DNA from: Candidatus Brocadia sapporoensis
GTDB taxonomy: Bacteria; Planctomycetota; Brocadiia; Brocadiales; Brocadiaceae
Reading direction: 5' to 3'
Length of the DNA stretch: 53,020 nt
Assembly (NCBI RefSeq): GCF_001753675.2
Contig: NZ_MJUW02000026.1
Span: 1,000-54,019, forward strand
The notes under the pieces were generated by a model. That model did no database searches, was not told the DNA's origin, and worked only from the letters and a program-made list of their open reading frames with translations. This document shows, piece after piece, positions 7,317 to 40,692 of the stretch. The position numbers were made by a program, and so were the translations under genes. How positions within the stretch are numbered: the stretch's first letter is position 1; each line of letters begins with the position of its first letter.

Positions 7317-8453
7317 ATGCTTAAAAAACATACTAGAACTTCTACACTGCCGCTATTATTTGTTTCGTTATTTCTTGTCGCACTGCCAACAACACTTTAT
7401 GCACAACTCGCCGACTCTCCTTGGCCCATGTTCAGGCACGACTTACAGCATACCGGAAGAAGCGCATCTGTGGGTATTCAAAAATCTGAACTCAAATGGA
7501 TATTTCAAACCGGAGGTCCTGTTACTTCCTCTCCGGCAATCGGGAAAGACGGTACTATTTACTTTGGTTCGAAAGACAAAAAACTCTATGCCATCTCCAG
7601 AAATGGCAAACTGAAATGGGCATTTGAAACACAAAATGAGGTTGATTCATCGCCTGCCATCCGAAAAGACGGCGTCATTGTTTTCGGCTCGTGGGACGGG
7701 CACCTCTATGCAGTAAATCCCGACGGTACTTTACGCTGGAAGTACAAGTCCGAAGGCGGTATCATTTCATCCCCTGCCATTGCGCCCGATGGTATGATTT
7801 ATGTAGGGTCATGGGATAACAAACTCCACGCCATTACCCACGATGGACAGCTTCGATGGACGCAAAAGACAGCAGACCATATTGTGTCGTCTCCTGCCAT
7901 GGCACCGGATGGCATGATCTATTTCGGCTCCGGAGACTATTACTTATTTGCCATGAAACCTGTAGGCAAAGCAGTGTGGAGTTTTGGTACCAGATATCTG
8001 CTCGACGCCTCACCTTTAATTGCACCGAATGGAAATATTTATGTCGGTTCTGAGGATGCCAGGTTTTACGCTTTTCGTCCGGATGGTCATGTAGAATGGA
8101 CTTTTGATACGCTCTACGATATTGATTCTTCTGCAGCCATCGATACTGAAGGAAACGTGTACTTTGGTTCCGGAAACAATAACTTCTATGCATTTACGCC
8201 CATGGGAAAACTGAAGTGGTGCTACGAGACAGGATCTTCGGTTCACTCGTCACCGGCTATTGCAAACGGCACAATCTATATCGGTTCAAGAGATAAAAAA
8301 TTGTATGCCTTAAATGCCGATGGAAGTTTGAAATGGTTTTTTGAAACAGGCGGTGCAATAGAATCATCACCGGCCATTGATGCCGATGGCACCATTTATA
8401 TTGGTTCCAATGATGGAAAACTTTATGCGATTGGGGATGCTTCCAATCGATAA
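7317..8453 (+). CDS. Exported PQQ-type beta-propeller protein (eight repeats)
   Basis: A 378-residue protein with a Sec signal peptide (basic LKKHTRT, hydrophobic core, cleavage probably after LYA near residue 30) and eight tandem repeats of about 38 residues. Each repeat carries an SSPAI...DG.IY.GS.D..LYA core and a following W, the signature of PQQ-like/BamB-like propeller blades. Eight blades predict a closed eight-bladed propeller exported across the inner membrane. In BamB such propellers are protein-binding scaffolds; in quinoprotein dehydrogenases they hold PQQ, but catalytic extensions are absent here. The ATG has AAGGAA upstream. The stop codon is immediately followed by an intergenic repeat. 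Confidence 0.8.
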   Translation: MLKKHTRTSTLPLLFVSLFLVALPTTLYAQLADSPWPMFRHDLQHTGRSASVGIQKSELKWIFQTGGPVTSSPAIGKDGTIYFGSKDKKLYAISRNGKLKWAFETQNEVDSSPAIRKDGVIVFGSWDGHLYAVNPDGTLRWKYKSEGGIISSPAIAPDGMIYVGSWDNKLHAITHDGQLRWTQKTADHIVSSPAMAPDGMIYFGSGDYYLFAMKPVGKAVWSFGTRYLLDASPLIAPNGNIYVGSEDARFYAFRPDGHVEWTFDTLYDIDSSAAIDTEGNVYFGSGNNNFYAFTPMGKLKWCYETGSSVHSSPAIANGTIYIGSRDKKLYALNADGSLKWFFETGGAIESSPAIDADGTIYIGSNDGKLYAIGDASNR

Positions 8454-8690
8454 CTCAAGTTATGTCTTCGGCTACAGAGGGGGTATGGACTTTGCTGTGA
8501 TGGCTCGACAGGCTCACCATGCACGGCGTCACCTCCTTAGCCTGCCGAAGGATCAGTCGAACGAGAAACTTATTTGTCCATGTTGTTTGAATATACACAC
8601 GGATTTAGAATATATCACACCGATAAACAAAGTTTGTCAGTGCTACCCTGTAACCCGCTTAAATAAAATGAAAATTCCTATACAATCAAG
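8454..8690. repeat. Folded intergenic repeat, copy A (carries a nested repeat)
   Basis: Starts with TCAAGTTATGTCTTCGGCTAC directly after the propeller gene stop and ends TCCTATACAATCAAG. It matches the 161-bp copy B at 19593-19753 over both flanks, but is about 75 bases longer because a different short repeat (8494-8565) is inserted in it. A third, shortened relative lies at 41471-41559. Frames running through it resemble each other between copies only because the DNA does, so I do not call a gene. Confidence 0.75.
8494..8565. repeat. Nested REP-like palindromic repeat, copy 1
   Basis: An imperfect palindrome with the segments CTCGACAGGCTCACCATGC and CCTGCCGAAGGATC...GTCGAAC. A close copy lies at 44685-44758. 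Here it interrupts the larger repeat A, since copy B at 19593 lacks it; this gives the order of insertion. Confidence 0.7.
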
Positions 8691-8781
8691 GCAAGCTCCG
8701 ATAGCTTGAAGATGTTGAAACTGCGACTACTGGCCTCTTTTTTTCATCCCATCCTGATCAAACAAGTTGTACTTCAAACAA
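8691..8781. other. Short intergenic spacer
   Basis: Between repeat A and the terminator of the FNT gene; nothing recognisable. Confidence 0.4.
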
Positions 8782-8816
8782 CTAAAAAGGGCCAGTATAA
8801 AACCGACCCTTTTTAG
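8782..8816 (-). terminator. Intrinsic terminator after the FNT channel gene
   Basis: CTAAAAAGGG and CCCTTTTTAG form a hairpin whose minus-strand reading ends in a T-rich tract. It lies about 70 bases past the stop of the minus-strand FNT gene. The A/T-rich arms would let it work in either direction. Confidence 0.6.
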
Positions 8817-8886
8817 TTAACAGTACTTGGAACTTTTTTAACAGATTTTCACATGTTATTATCTAGTCTTAAATATTATTGCGAAG

Positions 8887-9777
8887 TTATGACTTCATCT
8901 TTACTTTAACATCCTTAATCTCTTCGGGAGATCCACCTGCCCGAGGCAAACCGGTGCTTCCAGAACCTCCTTTTATAGACTCCAGCCTCTTTGCCCCTCT
9001 TTCATCCATATAGGTAGCAAACCAATAAAGGAATCCCACAAAGAAGCCACCACCCACAATATTACCAAGGGTAACAGGAAAGAGATTGCATCCAAACATT
9101 TTACCCCATGAAATCTCAGGGCCGTGTGGCAGCATATTTGCGATTGATAAAAGTGTCATATTTGCAACGCTGTGTTCCATTCCACACGTAACAAAAATAA
9201 ACAAACACCACCAGCACATCAATATCTTACCAGAATCACTTGTGCACCGAGCAGCTGACCATACACCAAGACAGACGAGCCAGTTACAAATGATACCTCT
9301 AAAGAAAAGTTCCAACCATGGAGCATTCATTTTATAGGTAGCCACCTTGTTCAAAAAGGCATGCCATGGATCGGGAGCAAAGACACCGGACATATAAATC
9401 AACCACGCAAAAAGTATGGATCCGCACAGATTGCCCAAGTATGTCCAAAACCAGGTAGTCAATGCATCAGACAATGGTACTGTGCCCCTTAAAGTTCCCC
9501 CAAGCATCACCATGTTATATCCAGTAAACAACTCTGCTCCAGCCATGACTACCAAAATCAAAGCTACAGGAAATACTGCACCTCCTATTATTTTACCTAT
9601 TCCGGGATTTATCGCTGCAACAGGCGCAGCAGCTATAATCATAAGAAGGACGCCAAACCCAACATAACAACCGGCCAATAAAGCAAGCGACAAGAAACCT
9701 AAAAGACTGTGCTTCATTGCAGTGGATTTCTTTACAGACACTGCTGCAATCGTATCTACACTTCCAGTATATAACAT
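8887..9777 (-). CDS. Formate/nitrite transporter family channel (NirC/FocA-like)
   Basis: Inner-membrane pentameric channel for small monovalent anions; in an anammox organism nitrite is the likely substrate, though formate cannot be excluded by reading. The 296-aa protein has about six hydrophobic segments and the family hallmarks AGAELFTGYN (first third), the RGIICNWLVCLGVW segment and GMEHSVANM with the conserved histidine in the pore. The ATG at 9777 has a strong AGAGGAG site about 8 bases upstream. It is the last gene of a minus-strand sensory cluster and ends at a terminator. The C-terminal tail of about 40 residues is hydrophilic and Gly/Lys-rich. Confidence 0.9.
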   Translation of the reverse strand: MLYTGSVDTIAAVSVKKSTAMKHSLLGFLSLALLAGCYVGFGVLLMIIAAAPVAAINPGIGKIIGGAVFPVALILVVMAGAELFTGYNMVMLGGTLRGTVPLSDALTTWFWTYLGNLCGSILFAWLIYMSGVFAPDPWHAFLNKVATYKMNAPWLELFFRGIICNWLVCLGVWSAARCTSDSGKILMCWWCLFIFVTCGMEHSVANMTLLSIANMLPHGPEISWGKMFGCNLFPVTLGNIVGGGFFVGFLYWFATYMDERGAKRLESIKGGSGSTGLPRAGGSPEEIKDVKVKMKS

Positions 9778-9986
9778 TAATTATTCTCCTCTAAAATGTT
9801 GTTGTGAACAGTACTTCTAGAACAACACCCCTTCTATTCATATCACATCTCTGATCTCAAATACATACTTCGACGATACAATATCTCAAATACTTTTTTA
9901 TACGTATTTAATCACACCCCCTTTCACCGGACTAAAGGTAGACAAAAGAATAACTCTTCGCCAAAAAACCCCATTCCATCTTTTCT
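9778..9986 (-). other. Upstream region of the FNT gene
   Basis: About 210 bases separating the FNT gene from the receiver-domain gene, long enough for its own promoter. I looked for a sigma-54 site (TGGCAC-N5-TTGC) because a sigma-54 activator is encoded nearby and did not find one. Only the ribosome binding site is clear. Confidence 0.35.
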
Positions 9987-10406
9987 CTATAGAGCAAATT
10001 TATCCACATCCATAATTTGCTCTAAATTGCGCACTTTATCAGTCAATTGTTTTTTCTCCAGCGCTTTTTTTACTATATCAATTACTTCTTTCTGTCGAAA
10101 AGGCTTCTGGAGGTAGTCGTAGACACCCCAACTGTTCATTCGGTTAGCATCATATCCGTCCTGTGAGACGATTGCTACAATTTCTGCATCAGAATTGACC
10201 TGTTTTATCTCTTTTAAAATCTCATAATTATTCTGAGATTCCGAATCTAAATCCATCAGGATAAGATCATAAACCTTTTTTTTGCAAGATCGCACCGCTC
10301 CATCCCACCCAACTCCTTCACATATTCCAAAACCATCTTGTTTTAAGATGTTTACCAACGACCTTCGAACCGTCTTCCGATCCCCGATAATCAAAATCCT
10401 TGACAT
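9987..10406 (-). CDS. Single-domain response regulator (receiver only)
   Basis: A 139-aa stand-alone REC domain. The phosphoacceptor aspartate is in DLILMDLD (about residue 52), the switch Ser is in VAIVSQ and the conserved lysine in YLQKPF. The acidic pair after the first strand is ILIIGDRK rather than the usual DD, so one Mg-binding acidic residue is replaced by glycine. No output domain follows; the last 25 residues form a charged helix. It lies 33 bases after the coiled-coil gene and upstream of the FNT gene, suggesting it is an intermediate in signalling by the cluster's receptors. The partner is not identified. Confidence 0.8.
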   Translation of the reverse strand: MSRILIIGDRKTVRRSLVNILKQDGFGICEGVGWDGAVRSCKKKVYDLILMDLDSESQNNYEILKEIKQVNSDAEIVAIVSQDGYDANRMNSWGVYDYLQKPFRQKEVIDIVKKALEKKQLTDKVRNLEQIMDVDKFAL

Positions 10407-10439
10407 AAAAATCTTTCGTATTTTCCACGAATATCATAT

Positions 10440-10973
10440 TTATTGCTTGGGAAGGCTCCACGCTCCTGGTGTTTTTGAATGTTCCTCAACCTGTTTTTCG
10501 AGTATTGCCTTTTCCTTTCTGAGTTTCTCCAAATTATTCTCTAGCTCCTGAATATTCAACTCTTTATCGCTCAGGGTCTTTTTTGTACGCGACAGCGAGT
10601 CTTCTAATTCCCATATCTGCTTTTGTAATCGGGCATGTTCCTCCTCCAGTTTTGCCTTCGCATCTATGAGGTCTTTGTTTGTACTCTGGAATTGCTCACT
10701 TTGTGATTTACAAGAAGCCGCAAGCTTTTCTGCATCCTCCTTTTGTCGGGTGATGTCATTTACCATCTTATTCAAATCTTCCATAGAACCAAAAGCTCTC
10801 ATTACCCTTTTTTCAAGCTGATCCCGAAAGGTCTTTTCCCTGACATAGCCAGCCTCCTTCATTTCATGGTATTTATTTATCATCTTGAATGCAAATCCAA
10901 CATTCACGAATAACAATATTATAATAAGGGTTTTCGCATTTACCGATATACCCTTTAAAACTTCGTTTCCCAT
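10440..10973 (-). CDS. Membrane-anchored coiled-coil protein of unknown function
   Basis: A 177-aa protein with one N-terminal hydrophobic segment (TLIIILLFVNVGFAF, about residues 14-29) and then about 130 residues of nearly uninterrupted heptad-like, Glu/Lys/Gln-rich sequence predicting a long coiled coil. The end (TPGAWSLPKQ) is not helical. I do not recognise a family. The ATG has an AGGAG site 9 bases upstream. It lies about 50 bases after the output-less PAS receptor and 33 bases before the receiver gene, all on the same strand, so it may be a structural partner of that receptor. Confidence 0.65.
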   Translation of the reverse strand: MGNEVLKGISVNAKTLIIILLFVNVGFAFKMINKYHEMKEAGYVREKTFRDQLEKRVMRAFGSMEDLNKMVNDITRQKEDAEKLAASCKSQSEQFQSTNKDLIDAKAKLEEEHARLQKQIWELEDSLSRTKKTLSDKELNIQELENNLEKLRKEKAILEKQVEEHSKTPGAWSLPKQ

Positions 10974-11026
10974 AATTTTCTACTCCTAAATTCAGTGTAT
11001 TTAAATTTTTTTAATAAATAATCACT

Positions 11027-13315
11027 TTATCTTTCCGTTATATCCCTAAATACACCTTCAATTCTTAGCGGTTTACCATTTTCATCACGCACGAGATTGC
11101 ATGTTCTTTCAGAAATAAATCTTTCTCCATCTTTTTTCTTGCAATACGATGTAAAATCTCTCCATACCCCTTCCCTATCCAACTTTTCAATCAATTCCTT
11201 CCGATCATCGGGATTAACATATACATCCTTTACCCGTGTACCAATCACTTCTTCCGGCGAACTGTAACCGAGCAGTTCAGCGCCTGACTTGTTGATCCAG
11301 GTAAATACTCCCTCTTCTGTTGGTTCACACTGATAAATCCCTTCTTTCAAAGAGTTCAGTAGAAGTCTATGATGCTTTTCTGATTCCTGCAGTTGCATCT
11401 CCAGCTCTTTCCGTTCGGTAACATCCCTAAATATTCCATCAATACGAACGGTCTTCCCCTTTTCATCAGTAATCAGATTGCATGTCCTTTCCATATAAAA
11501 GCGTTCGCCATTTTTCCTCTTACAAAATGATACAAAACCCTTCCAAACGCCTTCTTTGGTCAGTTTTTCAACAACTTTTACACGGTCATCTGACTTCACG
11601 TAGATATCTTTCACCTTAGTTCCGATTACTTCTTCTGGTGATTTATACCCCAGAATTTCAGCTCCGGCTTGATTAATCCACAAAAACGCCCCATCCACTT
11701 CCGGTTCAGATTGATACACGCCTTCTTTTAATGAATTAAACATCAACCGGTATTTCTTCTCCGATTCCGCAATTTCCTGTTCCACCTTTTTTCTCTCAGA
11801 GATATCCCTAAATACGCCGTTAATGGCGACAGGATTTCCTTTCTCGTCTCTCAGCAAACTGCTCGTACGTTCCGCATAAAAGCTCTCGCCATTTTTTCGC
11901 TTGCAGAGAGATATAAATTCCCTCCATATCCCATCTTTTTCAAGCTTCTCACAAAGACGTCTTCTATCTTCAGGGTCGACGTAAATATTTTTTACTTTTG
12001 TCCCTACCACTTCTTCCGGGCTGCCGTATCCTAATATCTCCGCTCCCGTTTTATTAATAACAGTAAAAACCCCCTCAGCACCTGGCTCAGACTGGTACAC
12101 ACCTTCTTTGACAGAATTAACCAGTTCCCGGTATCGCTTTTCTGACTCCACAACATCTTTCGTTTTCTGATCCAGAAATTTCGCCATCGCATTAAAGGAA
12201 TCAGCCAATTCACCAATCTCATCTTCCCGTTTTATATCCACTCTCTGAGTTAAATCTCCGGAAGCCATTTTTTTCGCCACTTCATCCAGTTTAATGATTG
12301 GCACCGAAGTTTTTCTACCAATTATGTACGCTACTATCACGATGGGAAACGCGATAATCAATAATACGGATGCTACAACGTACTTAAGGTTGTAGGCAGG
12401 GCCGTAACCTTCGTCCCTGTCAATTTCTGCAATAACACCCAAATTAAACTCCGGTAACCAATGCCATACTCCGAGAACTGTTAAACCGCTATAGTCTTTA
12501 TAACCTTTCGCATCAAAACCATTAATGCCCGCAACACACTGCTTAGCACCGGTGGTTAACTCACCTGTTTCTGAATTAACCAGCTTTAATTCCAATGCAC
12601 ACCTTCTTTTTACCAACCCCATCTCTTTCAAATGAGCAGCAAACCTTGATTCCGTGACCATATACCCATCTTTGTTTACAAGATAGGTTTCACCTGTTTG
12701 TCCCAAATGAAGACTTGTCATCAGGTCATTCAGTGCGTTTTCATCTACTCTTATAGCAACAACACCAACGACAACTCCATCACGATCTTTCAGTGGCGTT
12801 GAAACAAACATAGTAGGCATTCCCAACTCTTTCTCTCCCACTTCGTTGGTAAGCGGGATTTCAGACGGAAAAACATTCGACACAAATGTCTTTCCTTCGG
12901 CAGCCTGTTTGAAGTAATCCATTTGCGAAATGTCAATTCCTACACCTTCTTCCGATGTAGCAACTGTTACCAATCCTTGATCATTACTTATGAGAACGCC
13001 TTTATAACCATACTCATTCTTTACTACCTCCAGGTATTGAACGACATCCGGATAATCTTTATCGTCCTTTGTGATCTTGGCACATCTTACCATCAACGGG
13101 TTGTTTGCAACAACGCGGACATTCTTCATCCTCTCCCGCCCCCAGTTGGTTACCAATTCTGCCTGTTTGTGCCCAATGCCATCAAGGTTTCGGATAAGAA
13201 CTTCCTGAATGTCCGCACGAATCCTTGGATATGCTACGAACCTTAACAAAACAAACGGCAGTAGTGTAAATACAATAAGCAAAAAAATTAGTCGATTTTT
13301 AATCGAGATATACAT
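11027..13315 (-). CDS. Cache-HAMP-PAS-PAS-PAS membrane receptor without output domain
   Basis: A 762-aa inner-membrane sensor. First membrane helix about residues 8-25, a periplasmic double-Cache-like region to about 310, second helix (VLLIIAFPIVIVAYIIG), HAMP domain with GDLTQRV and EIGELADSFN, then three tandem PAS/PAC units of about 125 residues. The units are clearly internal duplicates: each has EGVYQ or EGIYQ, a GAE.LGY..PEEV.GT segment and ends in FRDITER or similar. The protein stops right after the third PAC; no histidine kinase, GGDEF, EAL or methyl-accepting domain follows. The ATG has GGAG upstream. Its N-terminal half resembles that of the kinase at 15837-19034, so they are paralogues. 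It may signal by interaction with neighbours. Confidence 0.85.
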   Translation of the reverse strand: MYISIKNRLIFLLIVFTLLPFVLLRFVAYPRIRADIQEVLIRNLDGIGHKQAELVTNWGRERMKNVRVVANNPLMVRCAKITKDDKDYPDVVQYLEVVKNEYGYKGVLISNDQGLVTVATSEEGVGIDISQMDYFKQAAEGKTFVSNVFPSEIPLTNEVGEKELGMPTMFVSTPLKDRDGVVVGVVAIRVDENALNDLMTSLHLGQTGETYLVNKDGYMVTESRFAAHLKEMGLVKRRCALELKLVNSETGELTTGAKQCVAGINGFDAKGYKDYSGLTVLGVWHWLPEFNLGVIAEIDRDEGYGPAYNLKYVVASVLLIIAFPIVIVAYIIGRKTSVPIIKLDEVAKKMASGDLTQRVDIKREDEIGELADSFNAMAKFLDQKTKDVVESEKRYRELVNSVKEGVYQSEPGAEGVFTVINKTGAEILGYGSPEEVVGTKVKNIYVDPEDRRRLCEKLEKDGIWREFISLCKRKNGESFYAERTSSLLRDEKGNPVAINGVFRDISERKKVEQEIAESEKKYRLMFNSLKEGVYQSEPEVDGAFLWINQAGAEILGYKSPEEVIGTKVKDIYVKSDDRVKVVEKLTKEGVWKGFVSFCKRKNGERFYMERTCNLITDEKGKTVRIDGIFRDVTERKELEMQLQESEKHHRLLLNSLKEGIYQCEPTEEGVFTWINKSGAELLGYSSPEEVIGTRVKDVYVNPDDRKELIEKLDREGVWRDFTSYCKKKDGERFISERTCNLVRDENGKPLRIEGVFRDITER

Positions 13316-13435
13316 TGTTTTCTCCGTAATTTTAACAAAATTGTGAGCCTATTAAGTATAAATATATAATCTCTTGAATGACCTTACCACTTCCGGCCAA
13401 CCCCCATTAATAAGCTTATTTAAAAATACCAGCGC

Positions 13436-14119
13436 TTACCACCAATGAAGTGGATACTCTCTCTTGCTCATCTTATTGAAGATTATCGCTATTGTTAACA
13501 TGATAAATATTCCCACCATGGTAGGATTCAGGATAAATAAATATCCGTTACCCAACCCCCCTGTTTGTATAGCCACATATGCCGTTGCACCTGCCGGAGG
13601 ATGTATTGAGTATGTCACAAACATCAGAAGAATAGCCAAGGCGACGGCAAGCGCAATTGACCACCACACCACACCAAAGAAATCATTGACAACAACACCG
13701 ATACTTGCGCCGAGGAAATGCCCCAGCACAACATTTCTTGGCTGCGCCAGAGGTGACTTATATGCACAATATATCAATGGTGCGGTAGAGCCAAAAGACC
13801 CCAACAGCATTGGACATTTCCATATAAAGGCCATCAACGCCGTTACCCCTATCCCCAACATCGCCCCACAGAAGGAAAGCACCACCTCTCTTGAAGTGAG
13901 CACTGGTTGTGGCGCTCTGGGCAATTTCATACAGTCGCTTATTGTTTTGCTTATTCCATCTAGCACCGGCATATTTTTTCTCTCCCCCCTTGAAGATTCT
14001 CCCAAAAAATCCGTAACACGCGTTACGCAACCCCTTTTTTTTTCTTCAATATTTTTTTCTATCCGAAATTTAACATCTATGACATTCCTGGTTTCAGAGG
14101 TCTTTTTCTTCATGAACAT
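13436..14119 (-). CDS. HPP family integral membrane protein
   Basis: A 227-aa protein with a hydrophilic N-terminal 70 residues followed by four or five membrane segments. The name-giving HPPAGATA motif and the conserved GSFGSTAPLIY and SPLAQPRN segments are present. HPP proteins of cyanobacteria and chloroplasts have been linked to nitrite transport, so nitrite movement is a reasonable guess here, supported by the FNT channel in the same cluster. The start is uncertain: the frame is open from a GTG at 14149, but the ATG at 14119 has an AAAGGA site 9 bases upstream and is preferred. A 260-codon frame on the opposite strand is a shadow. Confidence 0.8.
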   Translation of the reverse strand: MFMKKKTSETRNVIDVKFRIEKNIEEKKRGCVTRVTDFLGESSRGERKNMPVLDGISKTISDCMKLPRAPQPVLTSREVVLSFCGAMLGIGVTALMAFIWKCPMLLGSFGSTAPLIYCAYKSPLAQPRNVVLGHFLGASIGVVVNDFFGVVWWSIALAVALAILLMFVTYSIHPPAGATAYVAIQTGGLGNGYLFILNPTMVGIFIMLTIAIIFNKMSKREYPLHWW

Positions 14120-14275
14120 CTGCCAACATCCTTTTACCCGCAATAACACTAATATTGCGTACCAAGAAGCTAAGCCTATTGCGCAAAATTATAGACAACG
14201 GAAAGATTTGTTTTCTCAACGGCAAACATACATTGTTCTCTACTAATAACGAAAACTATACCAACTTTACACAGC

Positions 14276-14313
14276 AAAAAAAAATACCACCTATATTTTA
14301 ATATAAGTGGTAT
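14276..14313 (-). terminator. Intrinsic terminator after the sigma-54 regulator gene
   Basis: ATACCACCTATATT pairs with AATATAAGTGGTAT (one mismatch) and on the minus strand is followed by a run of eight or more T. It lies about 110 bases beyond the stop of the NtrC-type gene and separates it from the HPP gene, which therefore has its own transcription start. Confidence 0.8.
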
Positions 14314-14420
14314 CGAATCAATGTTTTATTAAAACACTACTATTTTTGGATCTTTACATGGATTATCGTTTAGCTATTAAGAAAAACATTCCAATATGCA
14401 ATAGCAATTTCAGTATGAAA

Positions 14421-15827
14421 TTATATATCTATGTCATCCGATATTTCATGTTGTGGTTTAATTCTATACTTTTTGATCTTCCTCCAAAGTGTCGTTGTTG
14501 ATATTCCAAGCAATTGCGAAACCTTAGTTTGATTACCACCATATTTATTCAGGGCTTCAACTATTGCATTTTTCTCCTGTTCCGCGAGAGTCGCAACAAT
14601 GAATGATTTCCTTTTCTTGTTCTCCAGGGGATCCAGATTAAGCCCCGTAAATTCCTCTACCGGAAGCGGAAGTTCGTCCACATTTATTATTTCATTCTTG
14701 GATAAAGTAACCACCCTTTCTATAATGTTCTGGAGTTCTCTGATATTGCCGGGCCAATCATAACTCATTAACGTCCGCATTGATTCTTTGGAAAATACCC
14801 TTTTCCCTTTTTTCAGTTTTTCCAGAATCTTCTCTAAAAAAAAGTCTACTAAAAGGGGAATATCTTCCCTTCGTTCTCTCAATGGAGGAAGATGGATACG
14901 GATCACATTGATCCGGTAAAAAAGATCCTTTCTGAATTTTCCCAGCTCAACGGCCTTTTCTAAATTTTCATTGGTAGCAGCAATGATTCTTGCATCCACG
15001 TATATGGCTTTGTTTCCACCAACAGGACGGATCTCGCCATCCTGCAAAAACCGCAGGAGTTTCACCTGTGTTGAAGGTGAAGTTTCACCAATCTCGTCCA
15101 GCAGAATCGTTCCTTTTTGCGCCTGCAGGAACAGTCCCACCTTGTCTTTAATGGCCCCGGTAAACGCCCCCCTCATGTGCCCAAACAGTTCGCTTTCCTG
15201 CAAATTCTCAGGCAACGCCCCACAGTTAATCACAATGAACGGGCACTCCTTTCTCAGGCTATTATAATGGATTGCCCTCGCAATCAATTCTTTTCCTGTT
15301 CCGCTTTCTCCCGTAACGAGGATAGTGCTTTCCGTGCGGCATACCTGTGAAGTTATTTTTAGCACCTCCAGCATCGCATTGGAATTTCCCACAATACCCT
15401 CAAATTTATACTTATCGCGAATTTCCCCTTCGAGATATCTGACCCTGTCTTTCAATCTCTTTTTTTCGAACGCCTTCGTTGCAACCTTCAGGATTTCCTG
15501 GTGCCGGAATGGTTTCGTTACGTAGTCATATGCTCCATCCCGGATCGCCTGAACCGCTGTGCTGATGGTGCCATAAGCCGTAATCAGCACCACTTCTGTA
15601 GATGGGTTCACAGCCTTCGCAGCCTTAAGCACTTCCAAACCGTCAATTTTCTTCATTTTTAAGTCCGTAACTACCAGGTCATATACATTGTGATTATTTA
15701 ATTTTTGAATGGCATCTTCCCCGCTTGCAACACCCTCAACCACATATCCCTCGTCTCTGAAAGCAATCATCAGGGATTCTCTCATGGCATCCTGATCTTC
15801 CACAACAAGAATTTTACCGTTTTCCAT
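14421..15827 (-). CDS. Sigma-54-dependent response regulator (NtrC family)
   Basis: A 468-aa activator in three parts. Receiver domain, residues 1-120, with the VEDQD acidic residues, phospho-Asp in DLVVTDLKM and Lys in VTKPF. AAA+ domain, about 140-375, with Walker A GESGTGKE, sigma-54-contacting loop GAFTGA, Walker B TILLDEIGE and an arginine-finger region. C-terminal Fis-type helix-turn-helix NQTKVSQLLGISTTTLWRKI. It would drive transcription by RNA polymerase-sigma-54 when phosphorylated. It starts 9 bases after the sensor kinase stop and the pair is evidently co-transcribed; a terminator follows. Targets are not shown by the sequence, but the adjacent transport genes are candidates. Confidence 0.93.
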   Translation of the reverse strand: MENGKILVVEDQDAMRESLMIAFRDEGYVVEGVASGEDAIQKLNNHNVYDLVVTDLKMKKIDGLEVLKAAKAVNPSTEVVLITAYGTISTAVQAIRDGAYDYVTKPFRHQEILKVATKAFEKKRLKDRVRYLEGEIRDKYKFEGIVGNSNAMLEVLKITSQVCRTESTILVTGESGTGKELIARAIHYNSLRKECPFIVINCGALPENLQESELFGHMRGAFTGAIKDKVGLFLQAQKGTILLDEIGETSPSTQVKLLRFLQDGEIRPVGGNKAIYVDARIIAATNENLEKAVELGKFRKDLFYRINVIRIHLPPLRERREDIPLLVDFFLEKILEKLKKGKRVFSKESMRTLMSYDWPGNIRELQNIIERVVTLSKNEIINVDELPLPVEEFTGLNLDPLENKKRKSFIVATLAEQEKNAIVEALNKYGGNQTKVSQLLGISTTTLWRKIKKYRIKPQHEISDDIDI

Positions 15828-15836
15828 AGTTCCACA

Positions 15837-18800
15837 TTATCCTACTAAAAGTTTATCCTGGACTGCCCATTTTTCATTTCCGACAGGCAACTTAATATAG
15901 AAAATCGTCCCCTTACCCTCCTTGCTCTTCGCATCAATGGTACCACCATGATCATCAATGATACGTTGAACCACTGCGAGTCCCAAGCCGGTTCCTTCGG
16001 ATTTCGTCGTGTAAAAAGGTTCAAATATCTTGTCCAGCTCATGAGACGGTATACCCTTCCCGGTATCTGATATCACAACCTCCACCGCATCCCGTAAAAA
16101 AACATTCGCTTTTCTGGCCATCACCTTAATTTGCCCGCCTTCCGGCATTGCTTCAAGAGCATTTATCAATAAATTCCATAATACCTGGTGAATGAGGTCT
16201 GGATCAATATAAACCTTCGGCAATACGCTCTCGTACACCTCTTTTATTTCAACCTGATCGGTAAACCGGCTATCCTGCGCTAAAAGGAAAAGGGTATTTT
16301 TAATCACGTCCCGTACATCCTGCAAGGAAAAGGAGGGCTCACTGGGATAGGCAAAATCCAGGAAATCACTGATTATTCGGTCTAATCTTTCGGATTGACC
16401 GACAATCATTTCCAGTAAATCTTTGTCCTGTCCCGTCAATTTTAAATGGGCATCTAAAATACCCACAGAATTACATATCGCTCCGAGTGGATTCCGGATC
16501 TCATGCGCAATCGCTGCGGCGAGTTCGCCCATCGAAGCTAATTTTTCTGATCGACGGACTTGTTCCTCCATTCTTTTCCTTTCCGTAACATCCCTCACAA
16601 ATGCCCTCACACAAATACATTCCCCTGTTTTAGTGTTATAAATACCTGTCCCGTTCATTTCGACGTTAATTTCCTTCCCTGATTTTGTCAGAAACATCGT
16701 TTCCAATTCACTACTTCCGGCCTCCTTAATCCGTTCAATAAACCTCTTTATTTCCCCGCGATATTCATTTGGAACAATGTCTTCCAGGGTCATCTGCCTC
16801 ATTTCTTGGAGAGAATACCCTAGTTTGTTTAATTCTGTTTTGTTGACATGAATAAAATTTCCTTTCAGGCTAACCTCATGAATCATTTCCGGCGCATTTT
16901 CCACAAGATCCCGGTATTTTTTTTCCGACTCCCTCGTGGAGAGAAAAAGCCTCGCATTTTCTATGGCAATGGCCAATTGCGGCGTAATTTGACTTAATAA
17001 TTCAAAATGCGCTTCGGTAAAAGCATCCTTCTGTTTACTCCCCAGGGTAACAGTTCCCGTGGTTATTCCCTTCGATTTTAACGGAAAACAAACATAAGAA
17101 TGTATCCCTTTTACAAATAACTCCCGGTCAAACTGATACGCACCCTCACCGGTATCCTTAACAAAAACGGGAATGCCCTTTTTGATCGAGATATCCTGCG
17201 CCGTTGCATGAGAAAGAGCCCGGTAGCAATGCAACCAATCCGTGGACAATACTATCCCATCAACAACATGAGAATCCTCAACAATTTTTGTCCCGTCGAT
17301 AAGACTCGCCACCCCCAACCAGACAAAATCAATTCTCCGCCTTAATTCACGATAAATATTTTTGTAAGCTTCTTTAATCTCCAAACCTGATGCAATAATC
17401 TTGTTGACGTTATTAACAATTTCCTTTTCGAGCGCCACGATCTTCTCTTCGGTAATATCTTTGGATATAACCACAAATCCGATAGGTTGCCCTTTTTCAT
17501 CACGCCTCAAGGTGAATGTAACATGAACGGAAAAGACTTCTCCATTTTTTCTCTTTCTCAAAACTTCTCCCTCATACCGACCCGTCTTGCGTGCTATCTC
17601 TAACATATGATCGACCTTCCCCGCTTTTAAATCTTCCTCGGTGTGAAGAATCCTCATATTCGCCACACCTATCATTTCTTCTGGTTTGTAACCATAGATC
17701 AGGCTTGCCCCTTTATTAAATGCGAGGATATTGCCGTTCAAATCTTCCGCGATAATCGAATATTCTGTAGAACCTGCTAAAATACTATTTAAAAAATTCG
17801 ATGTTTCCTGTAGTTCAAGGGTCCTTTCTTTTACTGTATTCTCGAGGTCCGTGGTGTAGTGTCTTAATTTGATTGTTTTTTCTTCCAGAGATTCTGCCAT
17901 AACGTTGAATGCCTGTGCCAGCTCGCTAATTTCGTCCTTCTTGCCATGGTCTTTTGCCCGCTGTCCCAGGTCGCCACTGGTAATTTTTTTCGTCACCTCG
18001 GTTATATTAAAAATAGGGGCGGAAATCCGTTTTCCAAAATAAAATGCAGCCAGGGTCATCGGAAAAGCCAATATCAGGAGCATTGAAAGAACAAACTTCT
18101 TCAAGCTAAGCGCCGCCCCATACCCCTCTCGAATATCAATCTGTGCAAGTAAACCGCAGTCGTGCTCAGGAATCCAACACCAAGCACCCAGCACCCTCCT
18201 GCCATCATAATTTTCATAACCATCTGCATCATAGCCACTATTACTACTCAGACATTTTTGTGCTCCGTACGTAAGTTTTCCCGTAAGCGGGTTTATTACC
18301 CTTAACTCTAACGCTGTCCTTTGCTGAATCAAACCAGCCATTCTCATTTCATCGGCAAATGGAGATTCGGTAAGCATAAAACCTTCACGGTTGATAAGAA
18401 AAGTCTCCCCTGTTTTCCCTAATTTTGCGCTTTTTGTGATCTCAGTAAGAGGCAATGTGTCTGCGGTGAGAACAACGGCTCCGGTCATACGATTGTTAGA
18501 ATCAATCAATGGGGCAGAGAGGAATATCGCCGGAACATTGTTATCGGCTTGCTCGTCTTTTTTTTCTTCCGGCGCAGGATATTGAACTTTTGATAGGAAA
18601 ACATTTCCATTTAATGCCTCCCTACAATAATCTTCATTCATAATATTGGAACCAATGCGTCCCGGTTCTGTTGCTACAAGCACCGTTCCATCAGTCGAAG
18701 TAATACGTATTGCTTTGTATCCATATTCTGACTTAACCATCTCGAGATAATCGTTTAGCTTTGGGAAACCTCTGGATTTATCATCCGTGTTCCGTTCCAT

Positions 18801-19034
18801 TACAGTAGACACATTTTTACTGACAACCTTTGCGTCACGTTTCCTTTCACTAAACCACATCTTTACAATCTCGACCTGTTTTTGCTTGACCCCCTCCAGG
18901 TTTCTGATTAAAGCCTCTTCCAAATCCTTTTGTGCCTTAGGAAACGCCACAAAACGCAGTAGTAACAAGGGCGTAAATGAGCAGAGTAAGAGTATCAGTA
19001 TTAATCTGTTTTTAATCGATCGGAAAAGAAACAT
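15837..19034 (-). CDS. Cache-HAMP-PAS-GAF-PAS sensor histidine kinase
   Basis: A 1065-aa inner-membrane kinase. Membrane helix about residues 8-28, periplasmic double-Cache-like region to about 320, second helix (LSMLLILAFPMTLAAF), HAMP with SGDLGQRA, PAS about 410-530, GAF about 550-700, second PAS about 715-835, dimerisation domain with the phospho-His in AIAHEIRNPLGA (about 860), and an ATPase domain with N-box LWNLLINALEAMP, G1 ISDTGKGIP, F-box FEPFYTTK and G2 GTGLGL. The last residues continue through the stop into a 9-base gap before the NtrC-type regulator, its obvious partner. The N-terminal half is paralogous to the output-less receptor at 11027. The ligand is unknown. Confidence 0.93.
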   Translation of the reverse strand: MFLFRSIKNRLILILLLCSFTPLLLLRFVAFPKAQKDLEEALIRNLEGVKQKQVEIVKMWFSERKRDAKVVSKNVSTVMERNTDDKSRGFPKLNDYLEMVKSEYGYKAIRITSTDGTVLVATEPGRIGSNIMNEDYCREALNGNVFLSKVQYPAPEEKKDEQADNNVPAIFLSAPLIDSNNRMTGAVVLTADTLPLTEITKSAKLGKTGETFLINREGFMLTESPFADEMRMAGLIQQRTALELRVINPLTGKLTYGAQKCLSSNSGYDADGYENYDGRRVLGAWCWIPEHDCGLLAQIDIREGYGAALSLKKFVLSMLLILAFPMTLAAFYFGKRISAPIFNITEVTKKITSGDLGQRAKDHGKKDEISELAQAFNVMAESLEEKTIKLRHYTTDLENTVKERTLELQETSNFLNSILAGSTEYSIIAEDLNGNILAFNKGASLIYGYKPEEMIGVANMRILHTEEDLKAGKVDHMLEIARKTGRYEGEVLRKRKNGEVFSVHVTFTLRRDEKGQPIGFVVISKDITEEKIVALEKEIVNNVNKIIASGLEIKEAYKNIYRELRRRIDFVWLGVASLIDGTKIVEDSHVVDGIVLSTDWLHCYRALSHATAQDISIKKGIPVFVKDTGEGAYQFDRELFVKGIHSYVCFPLKSKGITTGTVTLGSKQKDAFTEAHFELLSQITPQLAIAIENARLFLSTRESEKKYRDLVENAPEMIHEVSLKGNFIHVNKTELNKLGYSLQEMRQMTLEDIVPNEYRGEIKRFIERIKEAGSSELETMFLTKSGKEINVEMNGTGIYNTKTGECICVRAFVRDVTERKRMEEQVRRSEKLASMGELAAAIAHEIRNPLGAICNSVGILDAHLKLTGQDKDLLEMIVGQSERLDRIISDFLDFAYPSEPSFSLQDVRDVIKNTLFLLAQDSRFTDQVEIKEVYESVLPKVYIDPDLIHQVLWNLLINALEAMPEGGQIKVMARKANVFLRDAVEVVISDTGKGIPSHELDKIFEPFYTTKSEGTGLGLAVVQRIIDDHGGTIDAKSKEGKGTIFYIKLPVGNEKWAVQDKLLVG

Positions 19035-19592
19035 GATTTTAACGTTCCATCTCTTTCTTTATTACCAAGCTCGAACAAATCGGAAAAGATCAAGTCCGAA
19101 GCACGAAATTTATGAGCTAACCACACCAGGGTTTACTTTATTTATAATTTTTGCTGTAAATAACATAATTCTTTTTGGAAGACACCAAAAGACAACTCAC
19201 CGTTTTTATAAAAAATATAGCACAAAACGAGGAAAGAAAACAATCGAAAATCAAGGCGGAGATGAGGGGGAAGGGTTTAACGGTACACGCGTGGCTGTTG
19301 CCAGTCTGACCTCCATGAAGAAGTTATTGTTCAGACAGAGAGTCCAGAAGGCAGTACATAAGGAGCGAGGCGCAAATGCACGATATAGGATGTGTGATGT
19401 GTACACACGGTTGTCGTGAAATTGATAGCGGGAGCGACATCGATGGAACAGGTAGTAAAAGTATGGGCGGATGAGATACTGAATCATGGGAGAGGCGTTT
19501 TCATGGTAGCCGGCAAGACACTAAAATTAATTAAATAAATTGTCTAATTTATCAGATATTATGCCCTGTCTTGTTATTCATAGCATCAAACA
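19035..19592. other. Intergenic region with doubtful small frames
   Basis: About 560 bases upstream of the kinase gene. Two overlapping 31-32 codon frames on the plus strand, 19376-19474 (with CVMCTHGC near its start and AAGGAG about 10 bases upstream) and 19443-19538 (GGGAG upstream), have ribosome-binding-like sequences but no recognisable homology. They may be remnants of a lost gene. Promoters for the minus-strand kinase should also lie here but none is clear. Confidence 0.3.
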
Positions 19593-28129: not shown

Positions 28130-28239
28130 TCCCGGCGGTAACCTACTCTCCCAGCTTTCGTCAGTACCATCAGCGTAAAAAGCTTAACTACCGTGTTCGG
28201 AATGGGAACGGGTGTTTCCTTCTTACTATGCCCACCGGA
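28130..28239 (-). rRNA. rrf: 5S ribosomal RNA
   Basis: On the minus strand the sequence runs from TCCGGTGGGCATAG to TACCGCCGGGA, whose ends pair, and includes the conserved CCCATTCCGAACACGG loop. Length is about 110 nt. It lies 72 bases after the 23S gene in the usual 16S-23S-5S order. Exact ends are estimated. Confidence 0.93.
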
Positions 28240-28310
28240 ATAAATAATTTGATGAATGACTTAACGGTAACAATTGATACCAAGAATTGTGCATGATTAA
28301 TCTAAAAAAG

Positions 28311-31305
<2,995 letters not shown>

Positions 31306-31426
31306 AATTTATGTAATCTTCTAATCACACACAATTGAGGATCTAATTGCTACCCGTTAAGTATTCACTTTTCAAAGAACAAAACAACAAAATTTTACAC
31401 CTTAAATTTTTTACAACAATTTAAAG

Positions 31427-31502
31427 TGGTGGAGATGAGCGGGGTCGAACCGCTAACCTCTGCCTTGCAAGGGCAGCGCTCTCCCAATTGAGCTACATCC
31501 CC
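31427..31502 (-). tRNA. tRNA-Ala (anticodon TGC)
   Basis: 76 nt including an encoded CCA end. Acceptor stem GGGGATG/CATCTCC, D-arm TAGCTCAATTGGGAGAGC, anticodon loop CTTGCAA with TGC, and T-loop GGTTCGACCCC are all readable. It lies in the 16S-23S spacer next to tRNA-Ile. Confidence 0.95.
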
Positions 31503-31529
31503 TCTTTCTAATCTTTTGCTACAAGATAG

Positions 31530-31604
31530 TGGGCCTAAGTGGACTCGAACCACTGACCTTTCCCTTATCAGGGGAATGCTCTAAACCAACTGAGCTATAG
31601 GCCC
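31530..31604 (-). tRNA. tRNA-Ile (anticodon GAT)
   Basis: 75 nt without an encoded CCA (CTA follows the discriminator A). Acceptor stem GGGCCTA/TAGGCCC, D-arm TAGCTCAGTTGG, anticodon GAT in CTGATAA, T-loop GGTTCGAGTCC. First tRNA of the spacer, after 16S. Confidence 0.95.
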
Positions 31605-31678
31605 AAGATTATCTCAATCCCTCTGGGCCCACGATCCCTAAAATTAGAAGTCCTGCGTGCGAAGCAGGCATATGATTA

Positions 31679-33276
<1,598 letters not shown>

Positions 33277-33632
33277 AAATATTATAAAGGTTTCAAGTAG
33301 AACTTGAACATCTTAACTTCTTATGAACTCAAATAGCTGATTTTACATCAGCAGCACTACTCGCACGCATTTGACTTCTATTTTTTAAAAGAGCAATAAA
33401 ACAACTACTCAACTAAGAAAGGTAATTATAACTTGATTTATAAATAAATCAAGAAAAAAAAGAAAATATTTAAAATTACTTTTCTTAACGCAAATAATTA
33501 TACTTTTAAAAACTTTAATTTCAAATATAAAATATTTTGATAAAGAACCTTCTGAAAATAAACAAAGATACCTAGTTTAGATATATGATGATTATTATTC
33601 ATCCTGCCGCCTGACAAGGATCTCTTCAGCAA
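33277..33632 (-). other. AT-rich rRNA operon upstream region
   Basis: About 355 bases, very A/T-rich, with no gene. It contains the promoter candidate listed next and long A tracts that could act as an UP-type element. Confidence 0.5.
33425..33453 (-). promoter_or_regulatory. rRNA operon promoter candidate overlapping a palindrome
   Basis: On the minus strand TTGATT and TATAAT are 16 bases apart, about 150 bases before the 16S gene. The -35 box lies in a palindrome, CTTGATTTA-TTTA-TAAATCAAG (33432-33453), which could be an operator or a coincidence of A/T-rich sequence. Confidence 0.5.
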
Positions 33633-38283: not shown

Positions 38284-40692
38284 ATGCGCACTATCAATTT
38301 TAATCTGGCTTACGCCATCATCTTTATTTCCTTTTGTTACTTTATTGCAATTGGATCTCCTTCATCAGAGGCAGAGGATATTTCATTTTCTAAAGATTCC
38401 AAACTATTTCCTGGCATTATTAAAGAGGAATCCTGGCATTCTGCTGTTAAGGAAATATTTTCTCTAAAGAACTATTTAACGAAATATCTAGAGACTACAA
38501 AGCGAGAATGCCTGACGGAGAAATTACCGGATAATGAGCATCTGCCAGTTGTCACGGAGAAGGAAACGCCCTTAGCCGTTACAGATGAAAAAATTCTCTC
38601 TGTTCCCATGATAACAAAGGAAAAAGGCATTCAGAAAGGACTTGTTGCGGACGAAGATTACCATTTCGTGGTCCCGGAGAACAAAGTCTCTGATGAAAAT
38701 CAAAAAGTGGATGCCCATTTATTATCAACGATACCGGGTTCTGAAACCACGCCTACTGCCGAACGACAACTTCCTGACGATAAAGAAGATGTAATCCGAG
38801 TACACCAAAAAACTAACGGACTTCCCCGGCCTCTTGCCGGAAAGGAAGAATATCTATCGGATAAATTACCTGATAACGGGCACCAGCCTATCGTCGCGGA
38901 GAAGGACGTTCCCTCAACTGCTACCGATGAAAAAACTCTCCCAGTTCCCACGATAACGAAGGAAAAAGATATTCAGAAAGGATTTGTTGCGGACGAAGAT
39001 TACCATTTCGTGGTCCCGGAGAACAAAGTCTCTGATGAAAATCAAAAAGTGGATGCCCATTTATTATCAACGATACCGGGTTCTGAAACCACATCTGCTG
39101 CTGAACGGCAACTTCCTGATATTGCGGAAGGCGCAATCCGGACATACAAAGAAGGTAACGAACCGCTCCCGTCTCTTACAGGAAAAGAACTTCCTTCCTC
39201 AGAGGCAAGAGAAGAAAATGGCCAACAAGAGGATTCTCTGACTACCAAAGAACTCCAGCAAATGCCTACCCGTTCAGAGATCGTTCAAGAAGCGGGAAAA
39301 AAAGAAAACGCACCCATTGTTACCACCACACCGGAATTTCATAATGAAATTATTGCCGGCGGGAAATCCCTGCCAGACGAGGCGAAAGATATAAAATCTC
39401 CGTGGGACATATGGCATAAAGACCCAACACATAATGTGATCCTTGCAGTTGCTATTACCCTTATTGCTGCAAAAATTGGCGGTTATCTGGCACGTATGGT
39501 GAAATTTTCTGAAGTGGTGGGAAATTTGATGATTGGAATAATTTTGGGTAACATTTTCACCTTTACAGGATGGGATTTTTTTCACTTTTTAAAGACAATG
39601 CCCTTCCTAAAGATGATTTCATATTTCGGAACGTTGATACTTCTTTTCACAGTCGGACTCCATGTTGATCTCAGGGCATTGTTGCAGGTGGGGACTTCTT
39701 CTCTCCTGGTATGTTTAGGCGGTATAATAGCCCCTGCGGGCCTGGGACTTATGGTTGGACATTTTTTTCTTCCGGATACTTCCGTTGGTACAAAACTTAT
39801 TTTGGCAATCATTCTTTGTAATACAGCCACTGGTTTAAAACTTGCAGTTTTGAAGGAATTAAAGGCTATAAATTCACTGGAAGGCAGGGTAATAACCGGA
39901 GCAACGGTTCTTACCGATATTATTGTGTTTTTAACTTTCGGTGTTGTCAGTGGATTTGCGGTTAGTGGCGGGGTTTCTCTGGTAGGCATGACAGCCAGTT
40001 TTGGTACAGCAATCGCTTTACTGATACTCAGCGGGATACTGATATTAAAATATGGTGAGAAATTTGGAAACTTCCTCACAAAAAGGATGACTGAGGGTGC
40101 GAACATACCTATTGTGGTGGTTTTATCCCTTTTATTAGCCTTTATGTTTGGATCTGTAGGACTTCACACAATAATGGGTGCGTTTGTTGCGGGTTTATTC
40201 CTGCGCAATGTGAAGTTGAGGAGTTCCGATGATGAGGAGCATCGTACCATTGAATCGTTTATAAGGCCATTTTATATGCTCCTTGTGCCAATTCTTTTTG
40301 TTCGGGTAGGTGCACAGGTAGATCTGACCAGTTTTTTGAACAGAGAAGCAATTCCGCTTATTTTTGCAATAACAGGCGCTGCCGTTATTGGAAAGATGTT
40401 TTGCAGTGTTTGCCCGATTGAGAACAATATTAATCGTCTGGCCGTAGGTTTAGCAATGGTAATGAAGATGGATGGGACATTAATTGTGTCTGGAATTGCC
40501 AGAGATATGGGAATACTGAATGATGCTGTATTTTCCTCAATTGTTGTAGTGATCGTGCTTACTTCTACAATATGTCCTTCTTTTTTAAGGGCATCACTGG
40601 TGAGACAAAAAAGGCGCCTTAGTAAAAATTTTCACGTCACTGTTGATGAAAAAACCAAAGAGACTTTTATACGATTCAAAAGCAAGGTTTGA
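38284..40692 (+). CDS. CPA2-type cation:proton antiporter with long repeat-bearing N-terminal extension
   Basis: An 802-aa protein. An N-terminal hydrophobic segment (LAYAIIFISFCYFIAIG) looks like a signal peptide or anchor. Residues about 40-375 are hydrophilic, Glu/Lys/Pro/Thr-rich, with a 114-residue unit present twice. From about 378 on there are 11-12 membrane helices of the Na+/H+ exchanger (Kef/NapA-like) fold, with KFSEVVGNLMIGIILG, ATGLKLAVLKEL and EGRVITGATVLTDIIVF. The last reads TD where electrogenic members have DD. No C-terminal TrkA-N domain is present. Probably a monovalent cation/proton exchanger of an inner or intracytoplasmic membrane. No clear ribosome binding site at the ATG. 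Confidence 0.8.
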   Translation: MRTINFNLAYAIIFISFCYFIAIGSPSSEAEDISFSKDSKLFPGIIKEESWHSAVKEIFSLKNYLTKYLETTKRECLTEKLPDNEHLPVVTEKETPLAVTDEKILSVPMITKEKGIQKGLVADEDYHFVVPENKVSDENQKVDAHLLSTIPGSETTPTAERQLPDDKEDVIRVHQKTNGLPRPLAGKEEYLSDKLPDNGHQPIVAEKDVPSTATDEKTLPVPTITKEKDIQKGFVADEDYHFVVPENKVSDENQKVDAHLLSTIPGSETTSAAERQLPDIAEGAIRTYKEGNEPLPSLTGKELPSSEAREENGQQEDSLTTKELQQMPTRSEIVQEAGKKENAPIVTTTPEFHNEIIAGGKSLPDEAKDIKSPWDIWHKDPTHNVILAVAITLIAAKIGGYLARMVKFSEVVGNLMIGIILGNIFTFTGWDFFHFLKTMPFLKMISYFGTLILLFTVGLHVDLRALLQVGTSSLLVCLGGIIAPAGLGLMVGHFFLPDTSVGTKLILAIILCNTATGLKLAVLKELKAINSLEGRVITGATVLTDIIVFLTFGVVSGFAVSGGVSLVGMTASFGTAIALLILSGILILKYGEKFGNFLTKRMTEGANIPIVVVLSLLLAFMFGSVGLHTIMGAFVAGLFLRNVKLRSSDDEEHRTIESFIRPFYMLLVPILFVRVGAQVDLTSFLNREAIPLIFAITGAAVIGKMFCSVCPIENNINRLAVGLAMVMKMDGTLIVSGIARDMGILNDAVFSSIVVVIVLTSTICPSFLRASLVRQKRRLSKNFHVTVDEKTKETFIRFKSKV
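38644..38750 (+). repeat. 107-bp direct repeat in the antiporter gene, unit 1
   Basis: Identical base for base to 38986-39092, in the same reading frame, at a spacing of 342 bases (114 codons). The surrounding sequence of the unit is similar but diverged. Confidence 0.9.
38986..39092 (+). repeat. 107-bp direct repeat in the antiporter gene, unit 2
   Basis: Second identical copy of 38644-38750. Encodes the segment beginning VADEDYHFVVPENKVS. Confidence 0.9.

Follow-up and report, generated by a model that had tools for sequence, protein, structure and literature searches.

A kinase-less Cache-HAMP-PAS receptor paired with a membrane coiled-coil gene at a nitrite-transporter locus of anammox bacteria

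The window analyzed here is a stretch of 53,020 nucleotides from Candidatus Brocadia sapporoensis. Its genome carries hydrazine synthase alpha (PF18582) and its near relatives are Ca. Brocadia, Jettenia and others, which identifies the organism as an anammox bacterium. Anammox bacteria convert ammonium and nitrite to nitrogen gas, and nitrite is what they live on. Table 1 presents the genes of interest, where the receptor gene is followed downstream by COIL, REC and FNT and preceded upstream by HPP, an NtrC-type activator and a histidine kinase. Elsewhere the window holds a complete rRNA operon (16S, two tRNAs, 23S, 5S; 28130-33278, minus strand).

Table 1. Genes of the receptor locus and domains of the receptor, in window coordinates.
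Feature	Coordinates	Strand	Basis
FNT formate/nitrite transporter	8887..9777	-	Pfam Form_Nir_trans E 2e-76
REC, receiver + NtrC-type linker without AAA+ domain, dispensable accessory	9987..10406	-	NtrC likeness
COIL, 177 aa, one TM helix + coiled coil, proposed output partner	10440..10973	-	Adjacency, family profile
Kinase-less receptor, 762 aa, dCache-HAMP-PAS1-PAS2-PAS3	11027..13315	-	Pfam; orthologues in 33/33 Brocadiaceae genomes
PAS3, residues 647-762, terminal, most conserved domain	11030..11377	-	92.5% mean pairwise identity
PAS2, residues 520-636	11408..11758	-	PAS profile
PAS1, residues 393-509	11789..12139	-	PAS profile
HAMP, residues 332-378	12182..12322	-	Pfam, E 1e-13
dCache_1 sensor domain, residues 36-296	12428..13210	-	Pfam, E 4e-19
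HPP family membrane protein, putative nitrite transporter	13436..14149	-	Pfam TM_HPP E 7e-45; PMC7438415
NtrC-type sigma54 activator, linked in Brocadiaceae only	14421..15827	-	Pfam, synteny
dCache-HAMP-PAS-GAF-PAS histidine kinase, receptor paralogue	15837..19034	-	Pfam

The receptor open reading frame begins with ATG. Inspection with Pfam reveals the extracytoplasmic sensor, HAMP and PAS domains expected of a sensor histidine kinase, with three PAS domains in all (PAS_9 E 9e-42), and the protein ends on VFRDITER, where a PAS/PAC unit usually closes. Pfam gave no match in the receptor to HisKA, HATPase, GGDEF, EAL/HD-GYP, MCP (including the MCPsignal signaling hairpin) or HTH; a phospho-acceptor His/DHp with HATPase_c was likewise found neither in the receptor, by Pfam and six-frame profile, nor in its clade. 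A sequence-only reading had described a receptor that stops after the third PAC with no transmitter, next to coiled-coil and receiver genes equally devoid of a kinase domain, and Pfam bears this out for all three proteins. An AlphaFold2 model built from 17 sequences was too poor to use (mean pLDDT 48, pTM 0.26) and was set aside.

Across the 203 PAS copies of the receptor clade, the start-to-start spacing of neighbors is 127 aa in 118 of 123 cases (window 11030-12139), and 191 copies share a cysteine (Cys725 of PAS3), making it a possible candidate for a redox, metal or NO site. PDB sequence matches appear to include LOV domains; a LOV photosensor was rejected, as the LOV flavin motif is missing by eye from PAS1-PAS3.

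The receptor shares common ancestry with a kinase, and might be read as a truncated kinase or a decaying pseudogene. The comparison speaks against that reading. The receptor was found in all 33 Brocadiaceae genomes, where the 24 full-length main-locus orthologues are each exactly 762 aa long and 23 of them close on the same VFRDITER. Pairwise identity averages 79% in dCache, 85% in PAS1, 82% in PAS2 and 92.5% in PAS3, in which 72 of 120 columns are invariant; the C-terminus is thus the most conserved part, and dN/dS stands at about 0.05-0.08 (near 0.06). A DHp/HATPase profile run over six frames of 8400-19100 matched only the neighboring kinase, at 15840-19058 (E 7e-80), while every other match in that interval had E > 2, so that no kinase remnant is present, as the sequence-only reading had held. 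A tree of Cache-HAMP regions gathers 78 sequences, all devoid of a kinase domain, into one starred clade (SH-aLRT 99); the neighboring kinase and its orthologues form a separate clade. The receptor clade covers two families of the order, Brocadiaceae (f1) and f4, and the kinase-less state is therefore old. The sequence-only reading had named a C-terminal kinase or other output domain in close relatives as what would refute it; the orthologues carry no kinase. Fixed length, dN/dS, a clade lacking kinases and the absence of remnant DNA together rule out truncation, which we regard as having next to no chance of being correct; the comparison strongly supports a receptor that lacks a transmitter without being truncated.

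The most constant companion of the receptor is COIL, whose gene begins 53 nt beyond it. COIL lies directly downstream of the receptor in 33/33 Brocadiaceae genomes, a count that accepts the PAS piece in place of the whole receptor at contig ends and in split genes. By family profile, all 33 Brocadiaceae genomes have COIL, as do 14 of the 17 f4 genomes. It occurs in none of the order's other families, among them several with hydrazine synthase. The best-conserved section is the membrane and juxtamembrane part, and relatives by sequence are just generic coiled coils. In 7 f4 genomes (L209, L216, L217, L222, L229, L230, L231) COIL runs on into a receptor-type PAS, a fusion that, as read from these genes, links COIL to the receptor PAS domains by Rosetta-stone logic. 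The PAS tree groups the COIL-fused copies with the f4 receptors' own PAS copies and not specifically with PAS3, so that the fusion ties COIL to this kind of PAS, not to PAS3 alone. With strict adjacency in two families and these fusions, the earlier proposal of an output through the coiled-coil protein gains support, and direct physical contact between receptor and COIL is predicted with good confidence. The pairing has exceptions in f4: COIL was not detected in two genomes with a receptor (G054, G055), and at three receptor loci (L211, L212, L219) no COIL, HPP or FNT adjoins. Orphan COIL genes lacking a receptor occur at L235:8078-8590 and L236:7627-8226 (genomes G015, G017), where a UspA-like gene and a Na+/H+ exchanger lie upstream and FNT is nearby; window 38284-40692 encodes an exchanger-like protein resembling this exchanger.

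Two features absent from the earlier note are the nitrite-transporter context of the receptor and the dispensability of REC. The assignment of HPP proteins as putative nitrite transporters is taken from PMC7438415. REC is 37% identical to the NtrC receiver-linker and ends where AAA+ would begin. Of the acidic pair, phospho-Asp and Lys that mark a single-domain response regulator, D52 is kept in 22/25, K101 in 24/25 and E8 in 23/25 (G8 in the window), and the Ser/Thr position is not kept. REC is missing in G013, G018-G020, G024 and the f4 clusters, and is dispensable to the receptor cluster. The f4 unit reads FNT-HPP-receptor-COIL, and this core is kept without kinase, NtrC or REC; the f4 receptor has a single PAS and a length of about 520-533 aa. 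FNT is downstream in Brocadiaceae and upstream in f4; the linkage of receptor and COIL to FNT therefore survives rearrangement. Paralogue clusters L104 and L105 present HPP-receptor-COIL-FNT, again lacking kinase and REC. A simple consensus scan of the regions upstream of FNT and of HPP, in 25 loci each, found no conserved -24/-12 sigma54 site, which speaks weakly against local sigma54 promoter control of these genes. A PI3/PI4-kinase-like gene at L102:9105-9929 (G024) has FNT on one side and a second kinase-less receptor on the other.

The Kuenenia-like genomes G018-G020, and G024 as well, split the receptor into a Cache-HAMP gene and a PASx2 gene, which COIL follows. The published 'nitrite transporter gene cluster' of Kuenenia, kuste3050-3055 (PMC6423088), matches the window locus by gene order (HPP, Cache-HAMP, PASx2, COIL, FNT) and differs from it in the split receptor and the missing REC. 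From this order and the 300-aa FNT in L109 we infer that kuste3052, 3053 and 3054, labeled hypothetical or unknown proteins in that report, are Cache-HAMP, PASx2 and COIL. When NO replaced nitrite, kuste3055 fell 36-fold and kuste3052-3054 fell 3- to 5-fold; proteomics detected kuste3052, kuste3054 and kuste3055 (PMC6423088). Under nitrite limitation, the operon with focA_2 and the nearby HPP gene KSMBR1_1075 were up (PMC7438415).

Related receptors occur with other partners. At 14 loci, paralogues with two or four PAS domains are immediately followed by a Ser/Thr-kinase-like gene, and these paralogues probably act with it; the gene at L170:5035-5841 and the 13 similar loci carry HxDIKPGH and DLE motifs. 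An N-terminal PQ-loop (MtN3-like) membrane domain is fused to receptor-clade proteins at L111:7355-9541, L185:6364-8550, L194:6636-8840 and L198:6370-8562, and a second PQ-loop gene follows three of these four. A carbonic-anhydrase-like gene follows a two-PAS receptor and COIL at L213, L214, L220, L227, L233 and L238 and a three-PAS receptor and COIL at L103; its match to Pro_CA (beta carbonic anhydrase) is confined to the first half of that family. To judge from these gene arrangements, the sensor is constant across the receptor clade and its partner, fused or adjoining, varies. Other Cache proteins were also seen: a 407-aa Cache-HAMP-only protein adjoining a GAF-GGDEF gene (L172:11242-12465), a 591-aa double-Cache protein with no further domains (L172:5284-7059), and a further split set in which a Cache membrane protein, a single PAS and a small receiver each have their own gene (L105:1828-4883, L174:4311-6568, L218:10270-12664).

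The main rival to a receptor-COIL unit casts the receptor as a co-receptor, pairing through its Cache, TM and HAMP regions with the neighboring histidine kinase and altering its activity, such that NtrC and perhaps REC would carry the signal to transcription. The two proteins are paralogues with 41% identity over the N-terminal Cache-HAMP-PAS part, they co-occur in 31 of 33 Brocadiaceae genomes, mostly in a single gene cluster, and REC resembles the NtrC receiver-linker. However, all 17 f4 genomes lack the kinase, and most still hold the receptor and COIL. Docking on the nearby kinase, as the sequence-only reading had considered, therefore cannot be the general mechanism, since the core is kept without it, although the kinase may be wired to the receptor as an added branch in Brocadiaceae. 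The kinase also lies about 80 kb away in G022, the paralogue clusters have no local kinase, Cache-HAMP and PAS are separate genes in the Kuenenia-like genomes and G024, and FNT and HPP lack a conserved upstream sigma54 site. We consider this co-receptor role unlikely, though it deserves to be kept in view.

Output could also pass through a kinase encoded elsewhere, with the receptor controlling a Ser/Thr-type (Hanks-like) or other distant kinase. The kinase-like genes beside the 14 paralogue loci make this conceivable, but the window cluster has no such gene and a search of the window's own genome gave no strong paralogue with two or four PAS domains, and we judge it improbable. Slimmer still is the chance that the receptor is a decoy or buffer that binds ligand or sequesters partners with no active output. 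The protein has no recognized output domain, as such a role would have it, yet conservation peaks in the terminal PAS3 rather than in the dCache that binds ligand, and its partner gene stays the same.

Sequence comparison provides the architecture and its conservation, the kinase-free clade, the receptor-COIL pairing, the PAS-COIL fusion and the FNT/HPP linkage; as the genomes are related, the counts do not represent independent events, a number of the contigs are short, and neighborhood alone does not amount to interaction. The reading that we favor, at a little under even confidence, is that receptor and COIL form a split transmembrane signaling unit that delivers its output in trans, with the nitrite permeases as the most likely target. 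The dCache domain would sense a solute outside the cytoplasmic membrane, and HAMP would relay the change through the PAS stack to the free, highly conserved PAS3. This terminal PAS would pass the signal in trans to membrane-anchored COIL, which would act on FNT and HPP and adjust nitrite uptake after translation. The response of the Kuenenia cluster to nitrite supply (PMC6423088, PMC7438415) supports the split unit, whereas the joint presence of kinase and receptor in nearly all Brocadiaceae counts against it. Action on the FNT and HPP permeases is tentative; it is suggested by a linkage that outlasts rearrangement and by orphan COIL near FNT and the Na+/H+ exchanger. That the signal is nitrite or a related nitrogen anion is a conceivable assignment, on which we place slightly more weight.

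Comparison with known systems helps to place this proposal. The dCache-HAMP-PAS sensor histidine kinases, such as the one at 15837-19034, have the same sensory and relay domains, in contrast to which the receptor and its 78-sequence clade lack HisKA/HATPase. In E. coli, the membrane sensor kinase DcuS is complexed with the transporter DctA via its TM2/PAS region (PMC8307970, PMC3892338). The likeness is one of working only: a membrane sensor with cytoplasmic PAS tied to a transporter. DcuS has a kinase and is itself acted on by its transporter, whereas the window receptor is kinase-less and its contact with a permease would be hypothetical. Its genetic linkage to FNT/HPP, seen in two families, would be linkage to a transporter of the sensed substrate if the ligand were a substrate of these permeases. 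The system of PMC7438415 likewise couples anammox sensing to a nitrogen-substrate transporter, but in that system it is the transporter fold that bears a fused kinase, while the window receptor is separate and kinase-less. In the open-access literature we found no kinase-less Cache-HAMP-PAS receptor of anammox bacteria.

A broader generalization, which we hold to be rather doubtful, would be a two-family class of anammox receptors whose terminal PAS signals to a separate membrane coiled-coil protein that gates or positions nitrite channels, with kin that use a Ser/Thr-like kinase or a PQ-loop protein, the output being swapped with the neighbor gene. If true, a bacterial transmembrane receptor would keep its full sensory relay and place its output on separate, exchangeable genes. 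For anammox bacteria, the locus offers specific conserved candidates for the sensing of nitrite and the control of its uptake.
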